Under the pieces are notes generated by a model, which had not been told where the DNA came from, ran no database searches, and saw only the letters and a program-made list of their open reading frames with translations. Shown piece after piece: positions 36,194 through 60,005 of a stretch of 64,000 bases of DNA (position 1 is its first letter; every line of letters starts with the position of its first letter). The stretch is from a bacterium (GTDB lineage: Bacteria > Patescibacteriota > Saccharimonadia > Saccharimonadales > Saccharimonadaceae): assembly GCA_030429445.1 (NCBI GenBank), contig JAUIFG010000002.1, positions 62,001 through 126,000 on the forward strand. The letters are read 5' to 3'. Position numbers and translations under genes: made by a program.

Positions 36194-37684
36194 TTAATAC
36201 CCGCTAAAATGGTCGGTGTGGACTTGAATAACATCCATACTATCAGCCATTTTCTTTACTGACGTTACCATTCCTGGAGGACCAGAGATATATACACTAT
36301 GTTTGGGAGTGGCGTACTTTTTTAACAGCTCGCTCGTAACCATTCCTTCTTCGCGCTTCCAGCCAGCAACTGGCAATTTCGCGGTATCAGAAGTCACGAT
36401 GATAACCTTGACGTTATAATGAGCTAGCCTTTTTGCAAATGCCACATCATCGGCAGAATTGACTGCGTACAATATCGTAATATCGCGTCCTGCTGAATTC
36501 ATGGCAAATGATACAAAAGGTGTAATGCCAATTCCACCAGCCACACAAAGCAATGGAATCGAGCGATCCTTTGGCATAATAAAATCACCTGCAACACGAA
36601 CACCTTGCACTGCTTGCCCCGTCCTCAGATCAAGAAGTGCATCCTTGTACGTACTGTGCTTGCTGGGAAAACGTGTTGCGATACTCAGCTGCTCATCGCC
36701 CGGCTGACCGATTATTGTAAATATTCGACGCGTACCGCGAAAGTCTGCTTTTGCATGAGGTAATGACAACTCGACGTATTGTCCTGGGTAATACGAAAAC
36801 TTTGGAACGTCAAACGTAAATTCATAACTATCCTTGCCCTCTTTCTTTTTTGACACAAATCGCATTTTAACAGCACGACGAATGCCAACATAAAATGCCA
36901 GCGCATTACCGATAATAAGTGCAACTGCCGGCGTTGTACTGACGCCAGCGTATTGAATCGGCAATGCTACCAATACCGCTACGACTGCTGCAAAAACAAA
37001 CTGCTGTCGACGAGTCGACGGCAAAGTAAGTGGTTCGCACAACATTACACCAGCGAAAAAAACAAGTGGCCATGAGGTTAGCGACAGCCAAATAAGTTGC
37101 GGCGAGAGGTTGCCTTCAAAAATCAATCTGCCAATAATAATAGCAATCGCTGTTGCCAAAAAAACAAATGCCATCGACATTTTTTGTGTTTTGTACAAAA
37201 TTAACAATGCGACAACTATCGTTACCGGAAGGAGTGCGGGCGATGCCACCCACCATCCTGCAAACGCAAAACCCGTAACACTTGCAATGACAATTGCGAT
37301 TGCAGCGGGATTAAAAACATGTTTGCCTCGAACATTTATTATGTACTTTGACGCCATGGCAATGATTGCCACAATCGCCAATTTTGCACCATCCAAAAAT
37401 GAATCGGGGGGAGAAAACAACAATGCCAAAATAAACCCTGTAATGATTGCCGAATCAGCGTGCGTTTTGACACCAAACAACCATCCCAAAAAACGATTGC
37501 TACTATACGCCGACAGAACCAATACAACCGTGCCCGCTACAAATCCAATAGGCGAGTAAGGTAAGTACCCCACAAGCATCAACCCTGCCGCCACAACGAT
37601 GATTGTCAGCAGCCCCATGCTGACGAGCTTGTACATTGTTAGATAGCCCAGTAATGCATCGAGTCGTTGGCGAAAATCATTCAT
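36194..37684 (-). CDS. RnfD/NqrB-like membrane domain fused to FAD/NAD(P) oxidoreductase domain
   Basis: A 496-residue fusion. Residues 1-280 form about nine membrane helices with RnfD/NqrB-like motifs (SAIITGFILALLFSPP near 77, HVFNPAAIAIVI near 120, CEPLTLPSTRRQ near 215). Residues 285-496 are a ferredoxin-NADP reductase-like domain: FAD region RRIFTIIGQPGDEQ, NAD(P) loop VAGGIGITPFVSFA near 385, end SGPPGMV. Together they could take electrons from NAD(P)H and pass them through the membrane. The SGAT flavinylation site of true RnfD/NqrB is not seen. Followed upstream by ApbE and an FMN-binding protein with overlapping ends, so it is one operon. Confidence 0.85.
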   Translation of the reverse strand: MNDFRQRLDALLGYLTMYKLVSMGLLTIIVVAAGLMLVGYLPYSPIGFVAGTVVLVLSAYSSNRFLGWLFGVKTHADSAIITGFILALLFSPPDSFLDGAKLAIVAIIAMASKYIINVRGKHVFNPAAIAIVIASVTGFAFAGWWVASPALLPVTIVVALLILYKTQKMSMAFVFLATAIAIIIGRLIFEGNLSPQLIWLSLTSWPLVFFAGVMLCEPLTLPSTRRQQFVFAAVVAVLVALPIQYAGVSTTPAVALIIGNALAFYVGIRRAVKMRFVSKKKEGKDSYEFTFDVPKFSYYPGQYVELSLPHAKADFRGTRRIFTIIGQPGDEQLSIATRFPSKHSTYKDALLDLRTGQAVQGVRVAGDFIMPKDRSIPLLCVAGGIGITPFVSFAMNSAGRDITILYAVNSADDVAFAKRLAHYNVKVIIVTSDTAKLPVAGWKREEGMVTSELLKKYATPKHSVYISGPPGMVTSVKKMADSMDVIQVHTDHFSGY

Positions 37685-38571
37685 ACATATAATTGTCCCA
37701 CAAAACTTTTCGAATGCTCAATTTTTCCACCCGCGAATAATCGCACAAACTGAAAGTCGGCCATATTCACCAGCTTGTCGGCACTAACAAAAAATAATGC
37801 AGTCGCCAGACCATCTGCAATCATTGTGTCACCAGCGACAACCCATGTTGCAACGACATCACTTGTTGGCTCCCCCGTTCGTCCATCAAGTATGTGATGC
37901 CAGCCATCACCCCAACGACGCCGATTACTAGCAGACGCACACAAACTTGCATTGTGCAGTGGGTAAGTGCCTACTACCTTTTTTGTGTCGAACGGATTTT
38001 CAAGCCCAATCGTTTGCGTGTCACTTCCCTTATGTTTTATGTCTCCGCTCGCATCAATAACATATTCCACGATACCAGTCGCTTCTAGAATGGTAGATAT
38101 TTTATCCACCAGATAGCCCTTGCCCGCAGCACCCACATCCAAAATAATCGGTTCTTTTATCACGATTTTTGAATCCACCCACGTCATAACTTTATCCCAA
38201 TCAGGCACAGAAGATGGGGCAGTAGGGGATAGGGAGTAGTCTTTGTCATAACCCGCTGCCACCAGCCCCCCACCAACCAACGGCGTCACTGCCCCGCTAG
38301 TTGCTTCATATAATTGTCGGTAAAAATGAGCAATCCTAGAACTATCATCACCCAGATGAAATGTGCCGTCCGTCTGACTAAGTTGCGTAATTGTTGAATC
38401 ATCACGAAATCGTGAATATGTCTGATCAAACGCTTCAATGCACTCGCCTACCTCATTTTTTGTTTTTGTAGACAAATCGTTGGCCGTTTCTATTGACCAA
38501 GAAGTTCCAATGGCCTGAAATCGCCAAACAGAACTAAGCTTTTGCTTCGTTTTTGATGTCTTCGAGGGCAC
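37681..38571 (-). CDS. apbE: ApbE-type FAD:protein FMN transferase
   Basis: ApbE attaches FMN covalently to Thr/Ser of a partner protein. 296 residues. Seen: FDQTYSRFRDDSTITQLSQ near 50, the DVGAAGKGYLVDK segment near 142 (family DxGxxxKGY), YVIDASGDIKHKG near 166, HHILDGRTGEP near 230. The partner is most likely the FMN-binding protein just upstream (gene overlap about 38 bases) . No signal peptide or lipobox is evident, so where in the cell it acts is unclear. Confidence 0.9.
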   Translation of the reverse strand: MPSKTSKTKQKLSSVWRFQAIGTSWSIETANDLSTKTKNEVGECIEAFDQTYSRFRDDSTITQLSQTDGTFHLGDDSSRIAHFYRQLYEATSGAVTPLVGGGLVAAGYDKDYSLSPTAPSSVPDWDKVMTWVDSKIVIKEPIILDVGAAGKGYLVDKISTILEATGIVEYVIDASGDIKHKGSDTQTIGLENPFDTKKVVGTYPLHNASLCASASNRRRWGDGWHHILDGRTGEPTSDVVATWVVAGDTMIADGLATALFFVSADKLVNMADFQFVRLFAGGKIEHSKSFVGQLYV

Positions 38572-39031
38572 TATTAAATCCGATTGGCGTCAATGATGAT
38601 CCCGCAACACGGCTGAGGTTGATTTCATCGATATTCTTGCCTTTGACCTCATCACCAAAGCCAGAAGCAAATCGTGACTGAAATTCCTTTGCCTCACCAG
38701 TAATTGCATTTTGTGTAATTGTCGCACTCGTCACAACGCCATCTACTAGTGTCACTGACAGGTCAATTGATTCTGAACCACCAGGTGTAATGTAGCTACC
38801 TTGTGCATCATAATTGCCGTCTTTGTAACTAGCAGGTTGACTGTCAGTCGATGGCTGCACAGATTCATCTGAGGTATTCGTTGTGGCGGTTGTTGTCTCT
38901 GGTAGCGCAATCGAGTTATCACGCTCGGTATTGTTAGATGCGACAAACACAGCAGTTGCTGCGATTCCCAATAGTGCAACAACGAGTATCCCAACTATTG
39001 CCTTATTTGTACCTGTACGTGATTCATTCAT
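38534..39031 (-). CDS. Membrane-anchored FMN-binding protein (RnfG/NqrC-like)
   Basis: A 165-residue protein from ATG 39031: one membrane helix (AIVGILVVALLGIAATAVFV, near 10-30), a Thr/Ser-rich linker of about 45 residues, then an FMN-binding domain (YDAQGSYITPGGSESIDLSV near 75). Near the C-terminus AGSSLTPIGF aligns with SGATLTSxG of RnfG/NqrC; here the FMN acceptor position would be Ser, not Thr. TATAAT lies 10 bases before the start. First gene of the flavin operon. Confidence 0.85.
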   Translation of the reverse strand: MNESRTGTNKAIVGILVVALLGIAATAVFVASNNTERDNSIALPETTTATTNTSDESVQPSTDSQPASYKDGNYDAQGSYITPGGSESIDLSVTLVDGVVTSATITQNAITGEAKEFQSRFASGFGDEVKGKNIDEINLSRVAGSSLTPIGFNSALEDIKNEAKA

Positions 39032-41471: not shown

Positions 41472-42041
41472 TTAATTTAGATCGATATGGCAGTGCTGTC
41501 GATGATCATAAGCGGCATCACCATACCAACCTGTCTGAGTACCACCTGGACAGCCATCTGTACTTTGTATAATTGTTTCAAGTCGATAATACGAACCAGA
41601 GATAAGGCGTACGTATGGACCAGTGGTGGAGTTAACTGTCCACTTCGACGAATTGCTTGGTGGCGTCCCGACTTTGGCAAGCTCTGTCATGATAGTCGCA
41701 CCGGTGCTTTCCGCCACGCTATATATTGATGCCGTATTTGTTGACAAGCAACTACTATTTGGAAAGCCAGTTCCCAAACACCAATCTTGATTACTGGGTC
41801 CGTCACCACCAACCACCGGATCTGGATAATCACCAAATTGCGCTTTATACAGTTCATAAAGCTTATGCCATGCCTTTAGCTCGCTAATGGTCGAGGCTGT
41901 TTTTGCCTGTGTTGTAATCCCCGTATACGCCACCGTAACAATTGCAGCCAATATACCAATAACCACAACAACTATTAGAAGTTCAACAATGGTGAAACCT
42001 CGTAACTTCATTACAAATTGATTATCATTAATAATGCTCAC
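41472..42041 (-). CDS. Type IV prepilin (189 aa)
   Basis: Prepilin with the shared FTIVELLIVVVVIGI helix after MKLRG. Start is GTG at 42041, 7 bases after TATAAT, or the ATG ten codons later. The outer part has four Cys (QDWCLGTGFPNSSCLS, DGCPGGTQTGWYG, QHCHIDLN at the end) and is closely related to the prepilin at 52944-53534 (shared LGTGFPN, VAESTG, VGTPP-NS-K). Confidence 0.88.
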   Translation of the reverse strand: MSIINDNQFVMKLRGFTIVELLIVVVVIGILAAIVTVAYTGITTQAKTASTISELKAWHKLYELYKAQFGDYPDPVVGGDGPSNQDWCLGTGFPNSSCLSTNTASIYSVAESTGATIMTELAKVGTPPSNSSKWTVNSTTGPYVRLISGSYYRLETIIQSTDGCPGGTQTGWYGDAAYDHRQHCHIDLN

Positions 42042-49708: not shown

Positions 49709-50899
49709 TTATTTCGATTTTGGTGGTGTTGGTGTAAAGTAATCGTCTTCTACTACCGTCTGAGCGCGCCACTGACTAAATGCTTGTCCGAGGGGTAGAA
49801 TATCGTGATAACCAACAAAATCAGCAACCCGACGAATAAGTGCCGCAACCCAGCCGTACAGTCGCAAAAAGCGCCACTCGAAAGCCGCCCAATTCTCACC
49901 GACGGGAATAACCACGGGAGGTAACACAGGTTTGTATTTCTTTGCCCTTTTCCCGTTTTGCCGACGTTCCATATTTTTTGCAACAAAGAGTGCATCGTGT
50001 AGCGCAGTCTGAGCCAAACCACTAAATGGCGTAGCGGCATTATCGCCAATTACATAGATTCCATTTTTTGTTCTCATTTGTGAGTCAACGACAACTTTAC
50101 CGTTTTTTGCTAGTTCAAAATGATCAGCGTTTGCTGCAAAAAATGGGTTATTCGCAACGCCAGATGTCCATATAATCGTATGGCTCTTAAGTGGCTTGCC
50201 GTTTACAATCAGGCCATCTGCACTTGCTGATTCTACTTTTTTATTCAATCGAACTCTCACGCCTATTTTTTCAAGTCGCTGCTTTACCTTACTGCTTGTT
50301 TTTTCGCTCATCTTTGGCAATAATCTCGGCATTGCCTCCAAAAGCGTAATACCAACTTTGCCATGTGGTACGCCATAATGACTGCAGAGTCTCTTGATGA
50401 ATTGCCCCATAGATGCAGCCAACTCTATACCCGTCGGACCACCGCCTATAATGACATATTGCTTTTCAACCTCGTGATCCTCCGCAATTGCTTTGTATAA
50501 ATGATGCTTGAGGCGCATGATTTCTTGCTCAGACTTGATGCCATAGGCGAAATCATCAAGACCTTTAATTCCAAAATACGTCGTCACCGACCCAAGCGCC
50601 ATGACTAATCGATCATAATGATAGACGTTTCCTGTATCGCTTGTCAGCGATTTTGCATCGGGATCAACTTTACTAATGTTGTCAATCACGATCTTAACGT
50701 TTTGTTTATCAGCAAAGATTGTCCCCAGAGGCACCCATGATTGCAAATGGCTACGACCTGTCGCCGTCCCATAGAGTGCTGGAAAGTATTGAAAATCAGG
50801 CTTATCACTGATGAGTAAAATCTGGTTAGAAGTATCACGAGCCAACTCTAGTGCTGTTTTTACGCCACCAAAACCACCGCCTACTATTGTAATCTTCAT
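49709..50899 (-). CDS. ndh: Type II NADH dehydrogenase (NDH-2)
   Basis: A 396-residue single-subunit NADH:quinone oxidoreductase-like protein that does not pump protons. FAD loop ITIVGGGFGGVKTALELA at the N-terminus, NADH loop YVIIGGGPTGIELAASMG near 148, and GVYVIGDNAA-type motif (IYVIGDNAAT near 290). The C-terminal 50 residues are amphipathic and could bind the membrane. Its closeness to cyoE and the quinol oxidase suggests a minimal NADH-to-oxygen chain. Confidence 0.92.
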   Translation of the reverse strand: MKITIVGGGFGGVKTALELARDTSNQILLISDKPDFQYFPALYGTATGRSHLQSWVPLGTIFADKQNVKIVIDNISKVDPDAKSLTSDTGNVYHYDRLVMALGSVTTYFGIKGLDDFAYGIKSEQEIMRLKHHLYKAIAEDHEVEKQYVIIGGGPTGIELAASMGQFIKRLCSHYGVPHGKVGITLLEAMPRLLPKMSEKTSSKVKQRLEKIGVRVRLNKKVESASADGLIVNGKPLKSHTIIWTSGVANNPFFAANADHFELAKNGKVVVDSQMRTKNGIYVIGDNAATPFSGLAQTALHDALFVAKNMERRQNGKRAKKYKPVLPPVVIPVGENWAAFEWRFLRLYGWVAALIRRVADFVGYHDILPLGQAFSQWRAQTVVEDDYFTPTPPKSK

Positions 50900-50926: not shown

Positions 50927-51790
50927 TTACATCAAGTAGCCACCGGCTCCGATTGCAACCATCGTCACGATCAATACATAAATTGAACTTTTGAACATAC
51001 GTCGCGCCCATTCTTCGTCCGGTTCATCGACATGCGCAATGCCATTAACTGCCCAGTATAGTCCCCCAGCCACCATGGCAATGAGATATGGATTACAAGT
51101 CGCCCCGACAAAGGCCAGCGCAGGCGTCAACGCCAAAAAAACCAAAACCCAAAACAGCATCTGGTGACGCGTACTGTCATTGCCGTATTTAACTGACCAA
51201 ACCGGTAAATTAGCCTTTTTGTAATCATCCCTACGAAAAATTGAAATCGCGTAAAAATGCGGGAGCTGCCAGACCATCCACATTGCGAACAATACGACAG
51301 CGACGACATCTACATAACCCGTAACAGCAGTGTACCCTGCAACTGGAGGCAAAGCTCCGCAGACTCCGCCAACAATTGTACTGAGTGATGTTGTACGTTT
51401 TGCAATACCGTATATTACTACGTACCAAACATACGCCACTAATCCAAGAATTGCTGTTAACATATTCGTCAAAACTAATAATGACCAAAAGCCAACAATA
51501 CCGAGAGCAACCGCAAACATCACAGCGCTTCGCACACTGATATTGCCAGCCGCGACTTCGCGACCCTTGGTGCGCTTCATACGCGCATCGATATCACGAT
51601 CGATAACGTTGTTCGCAACACACGCCGATGCGATAACGAATGCAATGCCTATCACAATGCCAAGAAGCGTCTTTAGCTCAAAACCAAATGCGCTGGAAGC
51701 CAGGAAAAATCCTGCAACCGCAGCCAAGATATTACTTAACGTAATACCGGGCTTTATTAACTGTAAATAAGATTTTGTTCGTCGTTCCAT
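50927..51790 (-). CDS. cyoE: Haem O synthase (protohaem IX farnesyltransferase)
   Basis: CyoE/CtaB adds a farnesyl group to haem B to make haem O for the oxidase. The 287-residue protein has seven or more membrane helices, the prenyl-diphosphate-binding motif NNVIDRDIDARMKRTKGR near 62, and DDYKKANLPVWSVKYG near 185 on the second loop. It is separated from cyoABCD by a prepilin and two hypotheticals but lies on the same strand. Confidence 0.94.
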   Translation of the reverse strand: MERRTKSYLQLIKPGITLSNILAAVAGFFLASSAFGFELKTLLGIVIGIAFVIASACVANNVIDRDIDARMKRTKGREVAAGNISVRSAVMFAVALGIVGFWSLLVLTNMLTAILGLVAYVWYVVIYGIAKRTTSLSTIVGGVCGALPPVAGYTAVTGYVDVVAVVLFAMWMVWQLPHFYAISIFRRDDYKKANLPVWSVKYGNDSTRHQMLFWVLVFLALTPALAFVGATCNPYLIAMVAGGLYWAVNGIAHVDEPDEEWARRMFKSSIYVLIVTMVAIGAGGYLM

Positions 51791-52943: not shown

Positions 52944-53534
52944 CTACTCCGTGTAATCTAATCTATAGAAACACTCTTGCCTGATCGTATTGGCGTATCC
53001 AGTGACCATTCCACCCGGACATGCAGTACCAGCCGGATACGTAGTGTACAAACGAGCGTCTGTATCTGATCTATACCAAAGAAACGGACCCACGGTCTCA
53101 TACGTATATTTTGCAGAGTTCTGAGGTGGCGTACCAACGGTTGATAATGCCGTTAACAGTGTCGTACCGGTAGATTCAGCAACGCCATAGGACGATGCAC
53201 TCGAGGACACATAGCAATAATTATTCGGGAATCCCGTTCCTAGACAATACCCACCCAAAACATTCGCACCCGGCCCACCGCCAGTTAATGGCGTTGCGGA
53301 CGGAGCGGGATAGTGACCGTTTACCGCCCTATATGCTTCAAACAGTTTTTGCCATTGCTTGAGTTCGCTGGTGATGGCAGACACTTGGGCTCTTTGTTGG
53401 ATGCCAGTGTAGGCAACAGTAACAATAGCTGCAAGAATACCAATGACGACAACGACAATGAGGAGTTCAACAATGGTGAAGCCCGAATACCTATGTTTTC
53501 GCTCAGCTTGTGTCTGTTGAGACTTTGATAACAT
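52944..53534 (-). CDS. Type IV prepilin (196 aa)
   Basis: Leader MLSKSQQTQAERKHRYSG, then FTIVELLIVVVVIGI. The outer part is related to the prepilin at 41472-42041 (GGYCLGTGFPNNYCYV, YGVAESTG, VGTPPQNS, ACPGGMVTGYA) and ends in ECFYRLDYTE. Four Cys in the same places suggest two disulfides. It sits directly after cyoD. Confidence 0.9.
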   Translation of the reverse strand: MLSKSQQTQAERKHRYSGFTIVELLIVVVVIGILAAIVTVAYTGIQQRAQVSAITSELKQWQKLFEAYRAVNGHYPAPSATPLTGGGPGANVLGGYCLGTGFPNNYCYVSSSASSYGVAESTGTTLLTALSTVGTPPQNSAKYTYETVGPFLWYRSDTDARLYTTYPAGTACPGGMVTGYANTIRQECFYRLDYTE

Positions 53535-53601: not shown

Positions 53602-53943
53602 TCAGAAACCTTTGTCGTACTCCGTCAACATATATTGGTTTTTTTCAGTCGGCGAAAAATGCATCATACGTTCGTTTAGGTTATTCATTATCCAAATAGA
53701 TCCAACGACAATAATAAGTAAAATGAGTGCCATAAACCAAAATGATAACTGCTTGAGTCGAGGGCCAACCTCATCGTCCAGGTGTAAAAAGTACAGTAAT
53801 TGCACGGCCAACTGAGTTGCCGCCAATACACCCAGCACTACGAGCATCCAAGGATGAGTCTCGTTGTTTATGACCAAGAAATAGGCAACCAACGTCAATG
53901 CCAGTGATAGCGCAAAACCCGTGATGTATTTTTGCATCATCAT
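53602..53943 (-). CDS. cyoD: Quinol oxidase subunit IV
   Basis: A 113-residue protein with three membrane helices, matching CyoD (GFALSLALTLVAYFLVIN, LAATQLAVQLLYFLHL, then LLIIVVGSIWIMNNLNERMM). The start at 53943 forms an ATGA overlap with the cyoC stop; the longer frame overlaps cyoC heavily. Assists oxidase assembly. Confidence 0.93.
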   Translation of the reverse strand: MMMQKYITGFALSLALTLVAYFLVINNETHPWMLVVLGVLAATQLAVQLLYFLHLDDEVGPRLKQLSFWFMALILLIIVVGSIWIMNNLNERMMHFSPTEKNQYMLTEYDKGF

Positions 53944-54530
53944 TTTACAATCCCCATTAGATACACGACTGTAAATACAAATATCCATATCAAATCAAGG
54001 AAATGCCAAAACAAGCCAAACAATGTAAGTTGTCTGGTAAGTTTGTCCGTGATACCCCGACGCCAAATTGTTAGTGCAAGAACGCTTAGCCACAATAACC
54101 CGACGAAAACATGGAGTCCGTGCATGCCAACTAACGCAAAGAATGCTGACAAAAAGGCACTCGCTTGCGGACCGTGACCCTCACCGATCAACTTTACAAA
54201 CTCGCTCACTTCAATAAAAAGGAACGCTGCGCCCAGCACAAATGTTGCCAACAATCCATACAAAACCTGTCGTTTGTTTTTTGTTGCTAGGCCTATCAAA
54301 GCCAAACCGCAAGTAAAACTGCTCGTTAGTAGTATCAATGTCTCCGCTAAAACCAATGGCATTTCATATATGTCACGCCCCGCCGGACCGCCCGCCGTTG
54401 CATCACGAAGTACTGCAAACGTTGCAAACAACGTCGCAAACAATAGACAGTCCGTCATCAGGTATAGCCAAAAACCAACCGACGTTCTCGACAACAGACT
54501 CTTGTTTTCGGTTACAGATTCATTGTTCAT
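53940..54530 (-). CDS. cyoC: Quinol oxidase subunit III
   Basis: A 196-residue protein with five membrane helices: WLYLMTDCLLFATLFATFAV near 20, AETLILLTSSFTCGLALIG, VSEFVKLIGEGHGPQASAFL, GMHGLHVFVGLLWL and WHFLDLIWIFVFTVVYL, all family-typical. Start at 54530 gives an ATGA overlap with the cyoB stop. Confidence 0.95.
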   Translation of the reverse strand: MNNESVTENKSLLSRTSVGFWLYLMTDCLLFATLFATFAVLRDATAGGPAGRDIYEMPLVLAETLILLTSSFTCGLALIGLATKNKRQVLYGLLATFVLGAAFLFIEVSEFVKLIGEGHGPQASAFLSAFFALVGMHGLHVFVGLLWLSVLALTIWRRGITDKLTRQLTLFGLFWHFLDLIWIFVFTVVYLMGIVK

Positions 54531-56506
54531 GCCTCTGACCCCCAAAGTTTCTTTTCAGTTACAGCAATTTGTTTCTCAGTGATAGTTCGTTCAACGTTCT
54601 CACGCATGCCAACCAAAATAGCCAGTAGAATTGTGGCTATCAAACCAATAGCCGCCAACCACCACATATGCCAAATAACAGCAAAAGATCCAACAAACAC
54701 AACTATCGCAATAATTGGACCAAAACCACTGTTTTTAGGAACCAGAATATCCGTATAATTCGATAGCCGTTTGCGGCCTGATTGCTTGAAAGACCAAAAA
54801 GCATCACGTCCATGCACGACATCAAGGGTTGCATAATTATATTCTGCGATGGGCGTTGACGTAGACCATTCCAATGTGCGACCGTCCCATGGATCAGAAT
54901 CACAGGCGAGTTCCTTACGCTTCCAAACGCTGTACGCCAATTGTAAAATCTGAAAGAACACACCGAGCAATATGAACATTACACCAACACCCGCAACAAT
55001 AAACAGGCCCTGCCAACCCAAACTTGCGTCATAATGATCCAATCGTCGCACTGCACCCATGAGGCCTAGAATATAAAGTGGTGCGAATGCCAGAACAAAT
55101 CCAACCAACCAACTCCAAAAAGCAGCAATACCCAAGCCCTCGTGTAAGTGAAAACCAGTAAATTTTGGCCACCAATATGCCAATGCGGCAAATGCGCCGA
55201 ATAGCACGCCACCAATAATCATGTTGTGGAAATGTGCGACGAGAAACAGACTATTATGAACCTGAAAGTCTATACCGGGCACCGCAAGTAAAACACCGGT
55301 GACTCCACCAATGGTAAACGTAGTAATGAACCCCATAAACCACAGCATTGGCGTCTTAAAACTAATTCTGCCCCGAAACATTGTAAATAGCCAATTGAAA
55401 ACCTTGACGCCCGTTGGAATTGCAATCACCATCGTCATAATGCCAAAGAATGCATTTACATTTGCGCCCGCACCCATGGTAAAGAAATGATGAAGCCAAA
55501 CAGTAAACGACAAAACTGTAATTGCCATAATCGCCCACACCATACTGGTATAACCAAACAGTCGCTTGCGACTGAACACTGGAACAATTTCAGAAAAGAC
55601 GCCAAAAGCAGGTAGTACTAATATGTACACTTCCGGATGACCCCAAGCCCAAATTAAATTGACATACATCATCGGATTTCCGCCCAAGTCACTCGTAAAG
55701 AAATGAGTTCCAATTGTGCGATCAAGCGTCAGCATACCGAGCGTCGCCGTCAAAATCGGAAAGGCAAAAACAACGAGCAACATACTACCCAAAACTGTCC
55801 AGACAAAGATAGGCATTTTCATCATTGTCATACCTTTTCGACGCATCGTAAATATCGTCACGAGGAAATTGACGCCCGACAATAAACTGCCAATACCCGC
55901 CACTTGCAAACTCCATATCCAATAATCGACCCCTGTTCCAGGACTATATTCCAACGTACTGAGTGGCGGATATGCCAACCACCCCGCTGCCGAAAACTCA
56001 CCCAACGCCAGACTGACATTCATCAGTGCCATACCAGCAAAAAATAGCCAAAAACTAATCGAGTTAAGTAGCGGAAATGCTACATCACGTGCACCAATCT
56101 GTAACGGCAAAATTAAATTTATCAGACCAAATATCACGCCCATCGCGACAAAGAAAATCATTATCGTGCCATGTGCCGAGAAAACTTGCTGAAACAAATC
56201 TGCCGTAATTGGACCATCTGCCGTTGTCGCAAACAATGCCTGTTGTGCACGCATCATAATGACATCGGCCAAACCCCGAACTAACATTATTCCCGAAACG
56301 GCGATATACATTACACCGATTTTCTTTGGATCGAGCGATGTCATCCATGTGCGCCATAGCCACTTCCAACGCCTGGTGTATGTTAGCAGCCCTATGATAA
56401 ACAACACTCCCAGCACTCCGCCGACTGCTCCACCTATTGTCACTATATTGTCGGGTAACGCATCTAGACTTAGTCGCCCCAATAGCATGCTCCAATCAAT
56501 GTTCAT
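54527..56506 (-). CDS. cyoB: Quinol oxidase subunit I (bo3 type)
   Basis: The catalytic, proton-pumping subunit, 659 residues, about 15 membrane helices. Haem and copper ligands are all present: His in SAHGTIMIFFVAMG (low-spin haem), HPEVYIL with the His-Tyr pair (CuB), HH in VWLHHFFTMG, and both His of VAHFHNMIIGG. Of the four bo3 ubiquinone contacts, Arg and Asp are seen in LVRGLADVIMMR and Gln in LFQQVF; the usual His98 aligns with Leu. A start at 56515 is possible, but GGGGAG is spaced better for the ATG at 56506. Confidence 0.97.
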   Translation of the reverse strand: MNIDWSMLLGRLSLDALPDNIVTIGGAVGGVLGVLFIIGLLTYTRRWKWLWRTWMTSLDPKKIGVMYIAVSGIMLVRGLADVIMMRAQQALFATTADGPITADLFQQVFSAHGTIMIFFVAMGVIFGLINLILPLQIGARDVAFPLLNSISFWLFFAGMALMNVSLALGEFSAAGWLAYPPLSTLEYSPGTGVDYWIWSLQVAGIGSLLSGVNFLVTIFTMRRKGMTMMKMPIFVWTVLGSMLLVVFAFPILTATLGMLTLDRTIGTHFFTSDLGGNPMMYVNLIWAWGHPEVYILVLPAFGVFSEIVPVFSRKRLFGYTSMVWAIMAITVLSFTVWLHHFFTMGAGANVNAFFGIMTMVIAIPTGVKVFNWLFTMFRGRISFKTPMLWFMGFITTFTIGGVTGVLLAVPGIDFQVHNSLFLVAHFHNMIIGGVLFGAFAALAYWWPKFTGFHLHEGLGIAAFWSWLVGFVLAFAPLYILGLMGAVRRLDHYDASLGWQGLFIVAGVGVMFILLGVFFQILQLAYSVWKRKELACDSDPWDGRTLEWSTSTPIAEYNYATLDVVHGRDAFWSFKQSGRKRLSNYTDILVPKNSGFGPIIAIVVFVGSFAVIWHMWWLAAIGLIATILLAILVGMRENVERTITEKQIAVTEKKLWGSEA

Positions 56507-57425
56507 GATTGCCATACTCCCCAGTAAAACCTATTCCATGATGCATATACTTATTCAGTACTCTATCATACAAATTAACATCGTGCAGATGAAAGTACTG
56601 TGGCGAATCACCGGCACTTGGTATCGCCAATTGAGCATACGAACCTTGGTCAATATGAGCATGATTAATAGCATTTCTCACGCTCGCAGCCCATTTTTCA
56701 AATTCATAACGATCATCTACTGTTTTGGTCATGAAGTGCATATCCGCAAAGCCCTTGCCATTAATATTACTATTGCTACCTCGAAACTCACCTGGCTTAT
56801 CGGCAATCAAACTCAGTCTTGCTGTCATGCCATTCATCGCATAAATCTGTGAACCAAGACTCGGTATCCATAATGCGCTCATTGGACCATCGCTCGTAAC
56901 TTCAAAGTTAATAGGAACGCCTACTGGTATTTTGAGAACATTGACTGAAGCAACATCATAATCAGGATACAAAAACAGCCACTTCCATTGCATCGCGATG
57001 GCCTGAACACGAATCGCTTTTTCGTCGGATACAAGTGGTTTATAAGGATCGAGTTGGTGCGTACTTACCCATGTCACAACGCTCAGTATTCCTATGATGA
57101 CAATGGGAATCCCCCACCACAGACCTTCAATCCATCTGTTGCTGTCATGATCGGGTGTATATTTTGCCCGAGTATTACCTTCGCGGTAACGCCACGCAAA
57201 CCCACCAATCATGACAAAAACTGGCACTACAACAACAGCGCTCAAGGCAAGCGTAAATAACAACAAGTCTTTTTCGGCCATAGCAATTTCACCTTTTGGA
57301 TTGAGTACAGGGATGTCCAAACCTTGCAAAAGTATCGTCACCACGACAGTCGCCGTAATCGCAATAAACAACAACCCACCCGTTATGAGCCATGGCAAGA
57401 TAGATTTCTTCCTCCGCTTTGTCAT
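56496..57425 (-). CDS. cyoA: Quinol oxidase subunit II
   Basis: A 309-residue subunit: two membrane helices (near 12-35 and 55-80), and an extracytoplasmic cupredoxin domain (MQWKWLFLYPDYDVASVN near 140). The Cys-x3-Cys and other ligands of the CuA centre are absent, as expected for a quinol oxidase. No lipobox Cys is seen, unlike E. coli CyoA. First of cyoABCD. Start 57425 is preferred because TATTAT lies 12 bases before it; earlier in-frame ATGs at 57452 and 57494 exist. Divergent from the M16 peptidase gene. Confidence 0.94.
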   Translation of the reverse strand: MTKRRKKSILPWLITGGLLFIAITATVVVTILLQGLDIPVLNPKGEIAMAEKDLLLFTLALSAVVVVPVFVMIGGFAWRYREGNTRAKYTPDHDSNRWIEGLWWGIPIVIIGILSVVTWVSTHQLDPYKPLVSDEKAIRVQAIAMQWKWLFLYPDYDVASVNVLKIPVGVPINFEVTSDGPMSALWIPSLGSQIYAMNGMTARLSLIADKPGEFRGSNSNINGKGFADMHFMTKTVDDRYEFEKWAASVRNAINHAHIDQGSYAQLAIPSAGDSPQYFHLHDVNLYDRVLNKYMHHGIGFTGEYGNHEH

Positions 57426-57539
57426 GCTTGTGGTTCTATAATAAACCTTCATGAGATCTACGCCAACCCCGAGATATGATATGAAAAGTTTCATACACTA
57501 CTAGACTATATGCTATGATACCCCTATTAATTGCGAGGA

Positions 57540-58826: not shown

Positions 58827-58919
58827 CCTACCGGCTAAACACTCTCGGTGCTCTGTCCGGATCATTGTTTTCATCTTATGCTTGCACCCCTCTAGTTGCT
58901 TGCTCTAAACTTATTCCAA

Positions 58920-60005
58920 ATGGAACACTTTGACGAATCGCAACAATGCCCCATATCTCACATCAATACAACTAGCGACGATGTTGTTCTGTCGACGAAT
59001 TGGAACTACTTGCAAACAATGAAGATGAATCAGCTCGCCCCTTCTCCAAATATTTCAACCGTCACACCGCTCAATGCAGATAGAGCTAATCGTCGTTTCG
59101 TTCCCTGGTTTTGGCCCGATGACGAGCTGAGCAGTTCAGTTAAAATTCGCCAAAAAGCTTTTCTAAATAATCAAGATAGGGTTCTCGAAACTGCGAATGA
59201 TGATCCTGTTGTTCGTGCAGCGTCGCAACAACTTTTGTGGCTACAGGCACAATATCTTAGTGAGCGTTTTCCCGAAAAATACTCCATTGAACAAACTCGG
59301 AAATTCGGTAAGATTATCGTAAACAAAGCAAACGAAAACAAAATTGATAAGTTTAGTCTGCGCCCAGAAAAGGACGATTGGCATCCGTTAGCAATTAGTG
59401 GAATGCTCGGCCAGGAAGATATATGTATCGTCCGACGAAAAAAGAGTGGACGACAAATACTCGTCGCAGGATTTTTGGCATCACCAACTAACTGGAATTT
59501 ATCTGATTTTAAAGATGCAGATATGGACACGATCCATCAACAAGTAGATGGATATAGCCAACCCGTCGAAGGTAGAGACAAGTACCGGCTCAAAGACACT
59601 GTCGATAGAATGCTCGAATCTCTAGGTGAATATCCCAACGGAATCATTTGTCGAAACAACCAGTTCGTTGAATATATACCCACTCTTGCACGTGAACCGA
59701 GTGATGATCCAGAATTCAAAAAGAAAAAAATTACAAAAAATCCAGGCGATAATATATTCTTGCGAACCGAGCGCGAGACTCTCACTCGTCTACCAAAACC
59801 ATACGATGATTTCACTGTATTCACGATCAAGCCTCATGTATTTCGCATGTCCGATGTTCGTTCTTTCCGCGGTGTAGATTTTGCTCGTGCCGTGGTGACG
59901 AATAGCGTCTTGCGTTCGGCATTAAAACCCAACGAAGAAACAAATGAGAAGGATAGATTCGATTTTACTAAACTTCTCGAGAAATACTTGATGGCGGAGA
60001 ACTAG
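58920..60005 (+). CDS. DUF3445 / haem-dependent oxidative N-demethylase family protein
   Basis: A 361-residue cytoplasmic protein. The ending TERETLTRLPKPYDDFTVFT near 290 and the loop IHQQVDGYSQPVEG near 205 match the family signatures (R-x-ER-x-TL-x-RLP and IH-x-PV-x-GY). Characterised relatives bind haem b and demethylate secondary or dimethylated amines. Other haem-linked genes (cyoABCDE) are 2-9 kb away. Start at 58920: TAAACT lies 8-9 bases upstream; an in-frame TTG at 58896 is less likely. No catalytic residue is confirmed by me. The ROK kinase starts directly after its stop. Confidence 0.75.
   Translation: MEHFDESQQCPISHINTTSDDVVLSTNWNYLQTMKMNQLAPSPNISTVTPLNADRANRRFVPWFWPDDELSSSVKIRQKAFLNNQDRVLETANDDPVVRAASQQLLWLQAQYLSERFPEKYSIEQTRKFGKIIVNKANENKIDKFSLRPEKDDWHPLAISGMLGQEDICIVRRKKSGRQILVAGFLASPTNWNLSDFKDADMDTIHQQVDGYSQPVEGRDKYRLKDTVDRMLESLGEYPNGIICRNNQFVEYIPTLAREPSDDPEFKKKKITKNPGDNIFLRTERETLTRLPKPYDDFTVFTIKPHVFRMSDVRSFRGVDFARAVVTNSVLRSALKPNEETNEKDRFDFTKLLEKYLMAEN

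Follow-up and report, generated by a model that had tools for sequence, protein, structure and literature searches.

How a bacterium with a very small genome might pass electrons from cytosolic NAD(P)H to the outside of the cell, and how the flavoprotein at the end of such a path would acquire its flavin, are the questions raised by three overlapping ORFs at positions 36194-39031, on the minus strand, of the 64,000-nucleotide stretch of DNA analyzed here (the window). The host is a Saccharibacteria MAG (G000) of 825,529 bases (0.83 Mb) that is 97.5% complete, and its named relatives L002-L004 are Saccharibacteria MAGs as well. The first gene (38534..39031, minus strand, ATG start) encodes a predicted FMN_bind-type surface protein of 165 aa, which consists of a transmembrane anchor (residues ~10-31), a Ser/Thr-rich linker and a C-terminal FMN-binding domain. 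The second (37681..38571, minus strand, GTG start) encodes an ApbE FAD:protein FMN transferase of 296 aa that lacks a signal peptide. Finally, the third (36194..37684, minus strand) encodes a 496-aa fusion protein, in which an NqrB/RnfD-like membrane domain (residues ~1-268) is joined to a FAD/NAD(P)H oxidoreductase domain of the FNR type (residues ~272-496). An earlier note on this DNA had described these three overlapping genes and the fusion, and the ORF overlap, Pfam and family profiles confirm both. ApbE, FMN_bind and the fusion are each present in one copy in the genome.

The module is flanked upstream by a lamin-tail-domain protein gene and yebC and downstream by ruvC, a PBP gene and ruvAB. 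The surroundings are the same in the relatives L002-L004, except that a large membrane-protein gene is inserted after ruvC in L003. The window also holds pilin-like N_methyl genes at 41472-42041 and 52944-53534; in L003 (65-2006), the module is preceded by a tandem array of several pilin genes whose N-termini are nearly identical, which suggests variable pilin cassettes. Very small as the genome is, it also encodes, at 58896-60005 of the window, a HODM_asu-like (haem-dependent oxidative N-demethylase alpha-like) protein.

The fusion protein was examined in its two parts. PF00175 is matched in the window fusion (E=2.2e-10) and in all 35 aligned fusions. The residues expected to bind FAD and NAD(P)H vary little or not at all across these 35 proteins, in the motifs PGQYxE (G301-Q302-Y303-x-E305 in the window fusion), RGxRRxFT (R316-G317-x-R319-R320-x-F322-T323), AGGIGITPF (A382-G-G-I-G-I-T-P389) and YxSG (Y465-x-S467-G468). 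Because the window fusion contains only two cysteines, Cys216 and Cys380, it can have no [2Fe-2S] domain. For the membrane part, a direct Pfam search with the window fusion alone gave no match to PF03116, which is matched by 25 of the 35 aligned fusions (best 1.5e-13). The family profile of the membrane part matched the RnfD structure 8ahx_D (E=4.5e-5), with RnfD residues 116-142 and 223-331 aligned to profile positions 116-141 and 153-261. Between these aligned parts the fusion profile lacks approximately 70 residues of RnfD; in RnfD this segment carries the Thr with covalently bound FMN, at about T187 in Vibrio. Judged from this gap, the membrane subunit lacks the NqrB/RnfD flavinylation site. 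Structure prediction of the fusion, which the earlier note had proposed, gave a confident AF2 model (pLDDT 89.3, pTM 0.85), and the flavin-binding residues, whose absence the note held would speak against the module, are present and conserved at the sequence level. In a Foldseek search with the model the FNR domain dominates, and NqrB/RnfD is not among the best 50 matches. The window fusion is 77, 71 and 70% identical to those of its three relatives. Its differences from L002 are concentrated at the third codon position (21.6/9.5/57.3% at the first, second and third positions); the corresponding values are 24/17/52% for ApbE and 23/17/50% for the FMN protein. All three genes are, on the evidence of such comparisons, under purifying selection.

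This arrangement is not new in kind. Méheust 2021 (PMC8238504) defined an 'NQR/RNF-like system' from 127 clusters, mainly in Actinobacteria and CPR, and the window module belongs to this class. It shares with the published systems the NqrB/RnfD-like domain fused to PF00175, an extracytosolic FMN_bind subunit, a clustered ApbE, a membrane subunit without a flavinylation site, the lack of a return branch and the occurrence mainly in Actinobacteria and CPR. Huang 2024 presents a structural model of the two-subunit complex (PMC10979944/PMC11334425) and reports that the flavinylation site of the membrane subunit is not conserved in the NQR/RNF-like class (PMC11334425). An earlier Saccharibacterial case is that of Ca. 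Teamsevenus rhizospherense, for which Starr 2018 (PMC6031116) describes a membrane protein that likewise combines an NqrB-like with an NqrF-like domain and suggests a respiratory role; NDH-2 and cyo are encoded in that genome too. An FeS domain and the translocation of Na+ were deduced for that protein, whereas the window fusion has no [2Fe-2S] domain. The earlier note's view that the compact fused form is unusual is thus not borne out, given the published class, the previous Saccharibacterial example and the structural model. Its statement that Rnf/Nqr partners are absent did hold: PF02508 (RnfA/RnfE, NqrD/E) gave no match above cut-off in the whole genome. The module therefore resembles RNF and Na+-NQR in the homology of its subunits to RnfD/NqrB and RnfG/NqrC, but differs from them in having no RnfA/E or NqrD/E, in missing the RnfD covalent-FMN segment and in the fusion of its domains. 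The window module differs from the published description of the NQR/RNF-like class in its Ser site with a divergent motif, its long ApbE subtype and its ApbE without a signal peptide. The main text of the NQR/RNF-like literature, in the parts consulted, yielded no mention of signal-less ApbEs or of paired subtypes.

The FMN protein was assigned by its family. PF04205 is matched by 16 of the 29 aligned FMN proteins (best 7e-12); the window protein alone gave no match in a direct Pfam search. The family profile matched the crystal structure of an FMN-binding domain, 8p2a (E=2.9e-12). The AF2 model has pLDDT >90 over most of the domain, and its Foldseek matches are weak (best E 0.014), including 3o6u, 8p2a, RnfG and IscU/SufU folds. 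The FMN proteins have a single strong N-terminal hydrophobic stretch, followed in most by a Ser/Thr- or Pro-rich linker, and the charges flanking this stretch favor an N-in/C-out orientation in 23 of the 29, the window protein included, the exceptions being of the SGAT subtype. The earlier note had proposed Ser as the acceptor residue, and our data support this, with Ser146 (codon 38594..38596, minus strand) in the motif SRVAGSS146LT as the putative FMN acceptor. The window sequence SRVAGSS does not conform to the flavinylation consensus D-x-x-[ST]-G-A-[ST] (PMC12052999): the Gly and the acceptor Ser are kept, while the D, [ST] and A positions are changed. A change at D, G or A alone is reported to be tolerated in full or in part (PMC12052999).

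The window ApbE matches PF02424 (E=8.9e-40) and retains the catalytic residues; G176-D177, H226, A252-D253 and T257 are invariant in the aligned ApbEs. No signal peptide was found in the 32 aligned ApbEs, nor in the two relatives from outside CPR, Mesorhizobium and actinobacterium-like, which come from two plasmid-collection records. The best 15-residue hydropathy within the first 40 residues averages 0.72 for the ApbEs versus 2.86 for the FMN proteins. We considered a signal peptide hidden behind an upstream start and rejected it, as in every locus read the ApbE start coincides with the beginning of the catalytic domain or lies only slightly ahead of it. According to a review, most ApbEs are exported and cytosolic ones are exceptions. 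A signal-less enzyme is hard to square with the modification of a predicted surface protein: either flavinylation precedes export, or ApbE exits the cell by an unrecognized route. The genome encodes several FAD/FMN enzymes and yielded no match above cut-off, anywhere in its sequence, to a flavokinase or an FAD synthetase of the RibF type. The cell therefore presumably takes up FAD from its surroundings, which is compatible with ApbE acting on either side of the membrane.

Alignment of the loci revealed that the ApbEs fall into two groups that differ in the acceptor site with which they occur. Long ApbEs (~284-303 aa in the alignment) pair with a Ser acceptor in the motif [AS]-G-[SA]-S-L-T, and short ApbEs (~243-259 aa) pair with a Thr acceptor in the canonical SGAT. 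Counted as distinct motif/length combinations, the long enzymes occur with 16 Ser and 1 Thr sites and the short ones with 23 Thr and 1 Ser; the lone long/Thr case (L071) is an ApbE of the short type, lengthened by an insertion at its N-terminus. The two predicted enzyme/substrate subtypes thus co-segregate almost perfectly, and the window module is of the long-ApbE/Ser subtype. That a second fusion group lacks an FMN protein was considered and rejected, since a canonical SGAT FMN protein was found upstream in its loci.

A more novel reading, to which we give slightly less than even odds, is that the signal-less ApbE attaches the flavin in the cytosol, with export and anchoring of the FMN protein following afterward, and that the long ApbE and its Ser site, a poor substrate for ordinary ApbEs, evolved together. 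Flavinylation before export would reverse the order of events of known surface flavoproteins. The modified protein would then travel through Sec with its flavin tethered, or through Tat as a folded domain; we consider the Tat route because the genome encodes TatC and because twin arginines occur in the actinobacterium-like relative.

By hand tally from the tables, 62 of 198 genomes of the order and 60 of 380 genomes of the phylum encode a near-full-length fusion, 49 of the latter lying outside the class. Dozens of genomes share the order of the three genes, so that the operon conservation on which the earlier note had staked its proposal is borne out. In a tree of 52 fusions the window protein groups with its three close relatives, beside a record labeled as a Pseudomonas plasmid (99/91 support), and a Mesorhizobium plasmid fusion falls inside the other CPR clade. 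On account of these placements, transfer between CPR and other phyla is likely, although the branches are long. The plasmid of Mesorhizobium sp. B2-1-1, from another phylum, has the same three-gene order and a signal-less ApbE, of the short subtype with an SGAT site; its NQR/RNF-like cluster (L091, 3081-7512) is flanked by VIT-family and cytochrome b domain genes. The record labeled as a Pseudomonas sp. DR48 plasmid (L092, NZ_CP081947.1; 19 kb, 67% GC), likewise from another phylum, has the same gene order and a signal-less ApbE, in this case in a long-ApbE cluster with an AGSS site; its FMN protein differs in being a putative lipoprotein with twin arginines. This record carries what we take to be a putative argS and looks like actinobacterial chromosomal DNA, possibly a contamination. 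Two fusions stand without an adjoining ApbE: that of L042 (8259-9758, G141), which has no neighboring FMN protein either, and that of L038 (7880-9382), whose genome, G182, has a second, complete operon elsewhere.

The module is most likely a Saccharibacterial NQR/RNF-like flavinylated electron-transfer system. In the proposed mechanism, cytosolic NAD(P)H would reduce the FAD bound by the fusion's C-terminal domain, and electrons would traverse the membrane via a non-covalent flavin in the NqrB/RnfD-like domain to reach the FMN that ApbE has attached covalently to Ser146 of the anchored surface protein; the surface FMN would then reduce an extracytosolic acceptor. While the genes, their homology, the conservation of their residues and their co-distribution are directly observed, we infer the flavin occupancy, the direction of flow, the surface location and the acceptor. 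The outward direction, as the earlier note had it, is supported to the extent that the return branch of Rnf/Nqr is missing, and for the published class as well, electron flow from NAD(P)H to an acceptor beyond the cytosol is put forward as a hypothesis (Méheust 2021 and Huang 2024, in the parts consulted). The role is likely the re-oxidation of NADH under oxic conditions or the delivery of electrons to an acceptor such as Fe(III), and across lineages there is likely more than one acceptor.

Nearby genes bear on the first of these roles. The window contains bo3-type quinol oxidase genes cyoDCBA (COX4, COX3, COX1 and COX2 with COX_ARM; 53602..57494, minus strand), a heme o synthase gene CyoE/CtaB (50927..51790, minus strand; TIGR01473 above cut-off) and, outside the module, a gene for an NDH-2-like pyridine nucleotide oxidoreductase (49709..50899, minus strand; PF07992, NCBIfam). 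Such oxidase operons have already been published for Saccharibacteria (PMC6031116, PMC8407418). The module could serve an aerobic chain as an alternative NADH dehydrogenase, from which electrons would depart, at the fusion or at the FMN protein, to a scavenged quinone or directly to the bo3 oxidase 17 kb away. Within the order, COX1 is found in 51 of the 62 genomes with a full-length fusion and in 49 of the 136 without one (odds ratio 8.2, kinship ignored), and outside the class in 8 of 49 carriers versus 5 of ~298 non-carriers, again with kinship ignored; the operon adjoins cyo in three lineages (G147, G008 and G006), with distances of 2.6, 3.2 and 6.5 kb among them, and the respiratory role suggested by Starr 2018 (PMC6031116) points the same way. 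However, COX1 is absent from 41 of the 49 carriers outside the class and from 11 carrier genomes of the order, the NDH-2-like gene already sits with the oxidase, no NqrD/E-type partner was matched in the genome, and shared ancestry together with an oxic habitat could yield the association. We regard this alternative as possible but rather unlikely. An obligate partnership with the oxidase is rejected, as most carriers outside the class lack COX1; with 41 of those 49 lacking it, O2 respiration cannot be the only use of the module.

That the module is a surface ferric reductase feeding Fe(II) uptake through VIT1-type transporters we consider unlikely. Six NQR/RNF-like clusters with VIT1 are reported by Méheust 2021 (PMC8238504), VIT1 adjoins the fusion in G180 and G187 and lies near it in Mesorhizobium, and a FUR/PerR-like regulator adjoins the operon in G123, but VIT1 occurs in only 2 of the ~18 Saccharibacterial neighborhoods read and, for the window and its closest relatives, is not among the genes read beside the module.

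A degenerate or cytosolic system with no surface flavin, whose altered site stays unflavinylated or whose ApbE modifies an intracellular target, would fit the loss of the consensus D, [ST] and A and the missing signal peptide, but is improbable given that the site is strongly conserved within its subtype and co-segregates with one ApbE subtype, that single substitutions are reported to be tolerated wholly or partly (PMC12052999), that all three genes appear to be under purifying selection and that the genome encodes no other FMN_bind protein.

Returning to cytosolic attachment by a signal-less ApbE, flavinylation before export would, if true, remove the need for extracellular FAD. Together with the matched enzyme and site subtypes, the signal-less ApbE makes it possible to test at what place and stage surface flavoproteins acquire their flavin. 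If the module works as proposed, three genes would let sub-megabase bacteria without a complete respiratory chain re-oxidize NADH extracellularly, which would bear on the redox balance of CPR epibionts living on or near their hosts.
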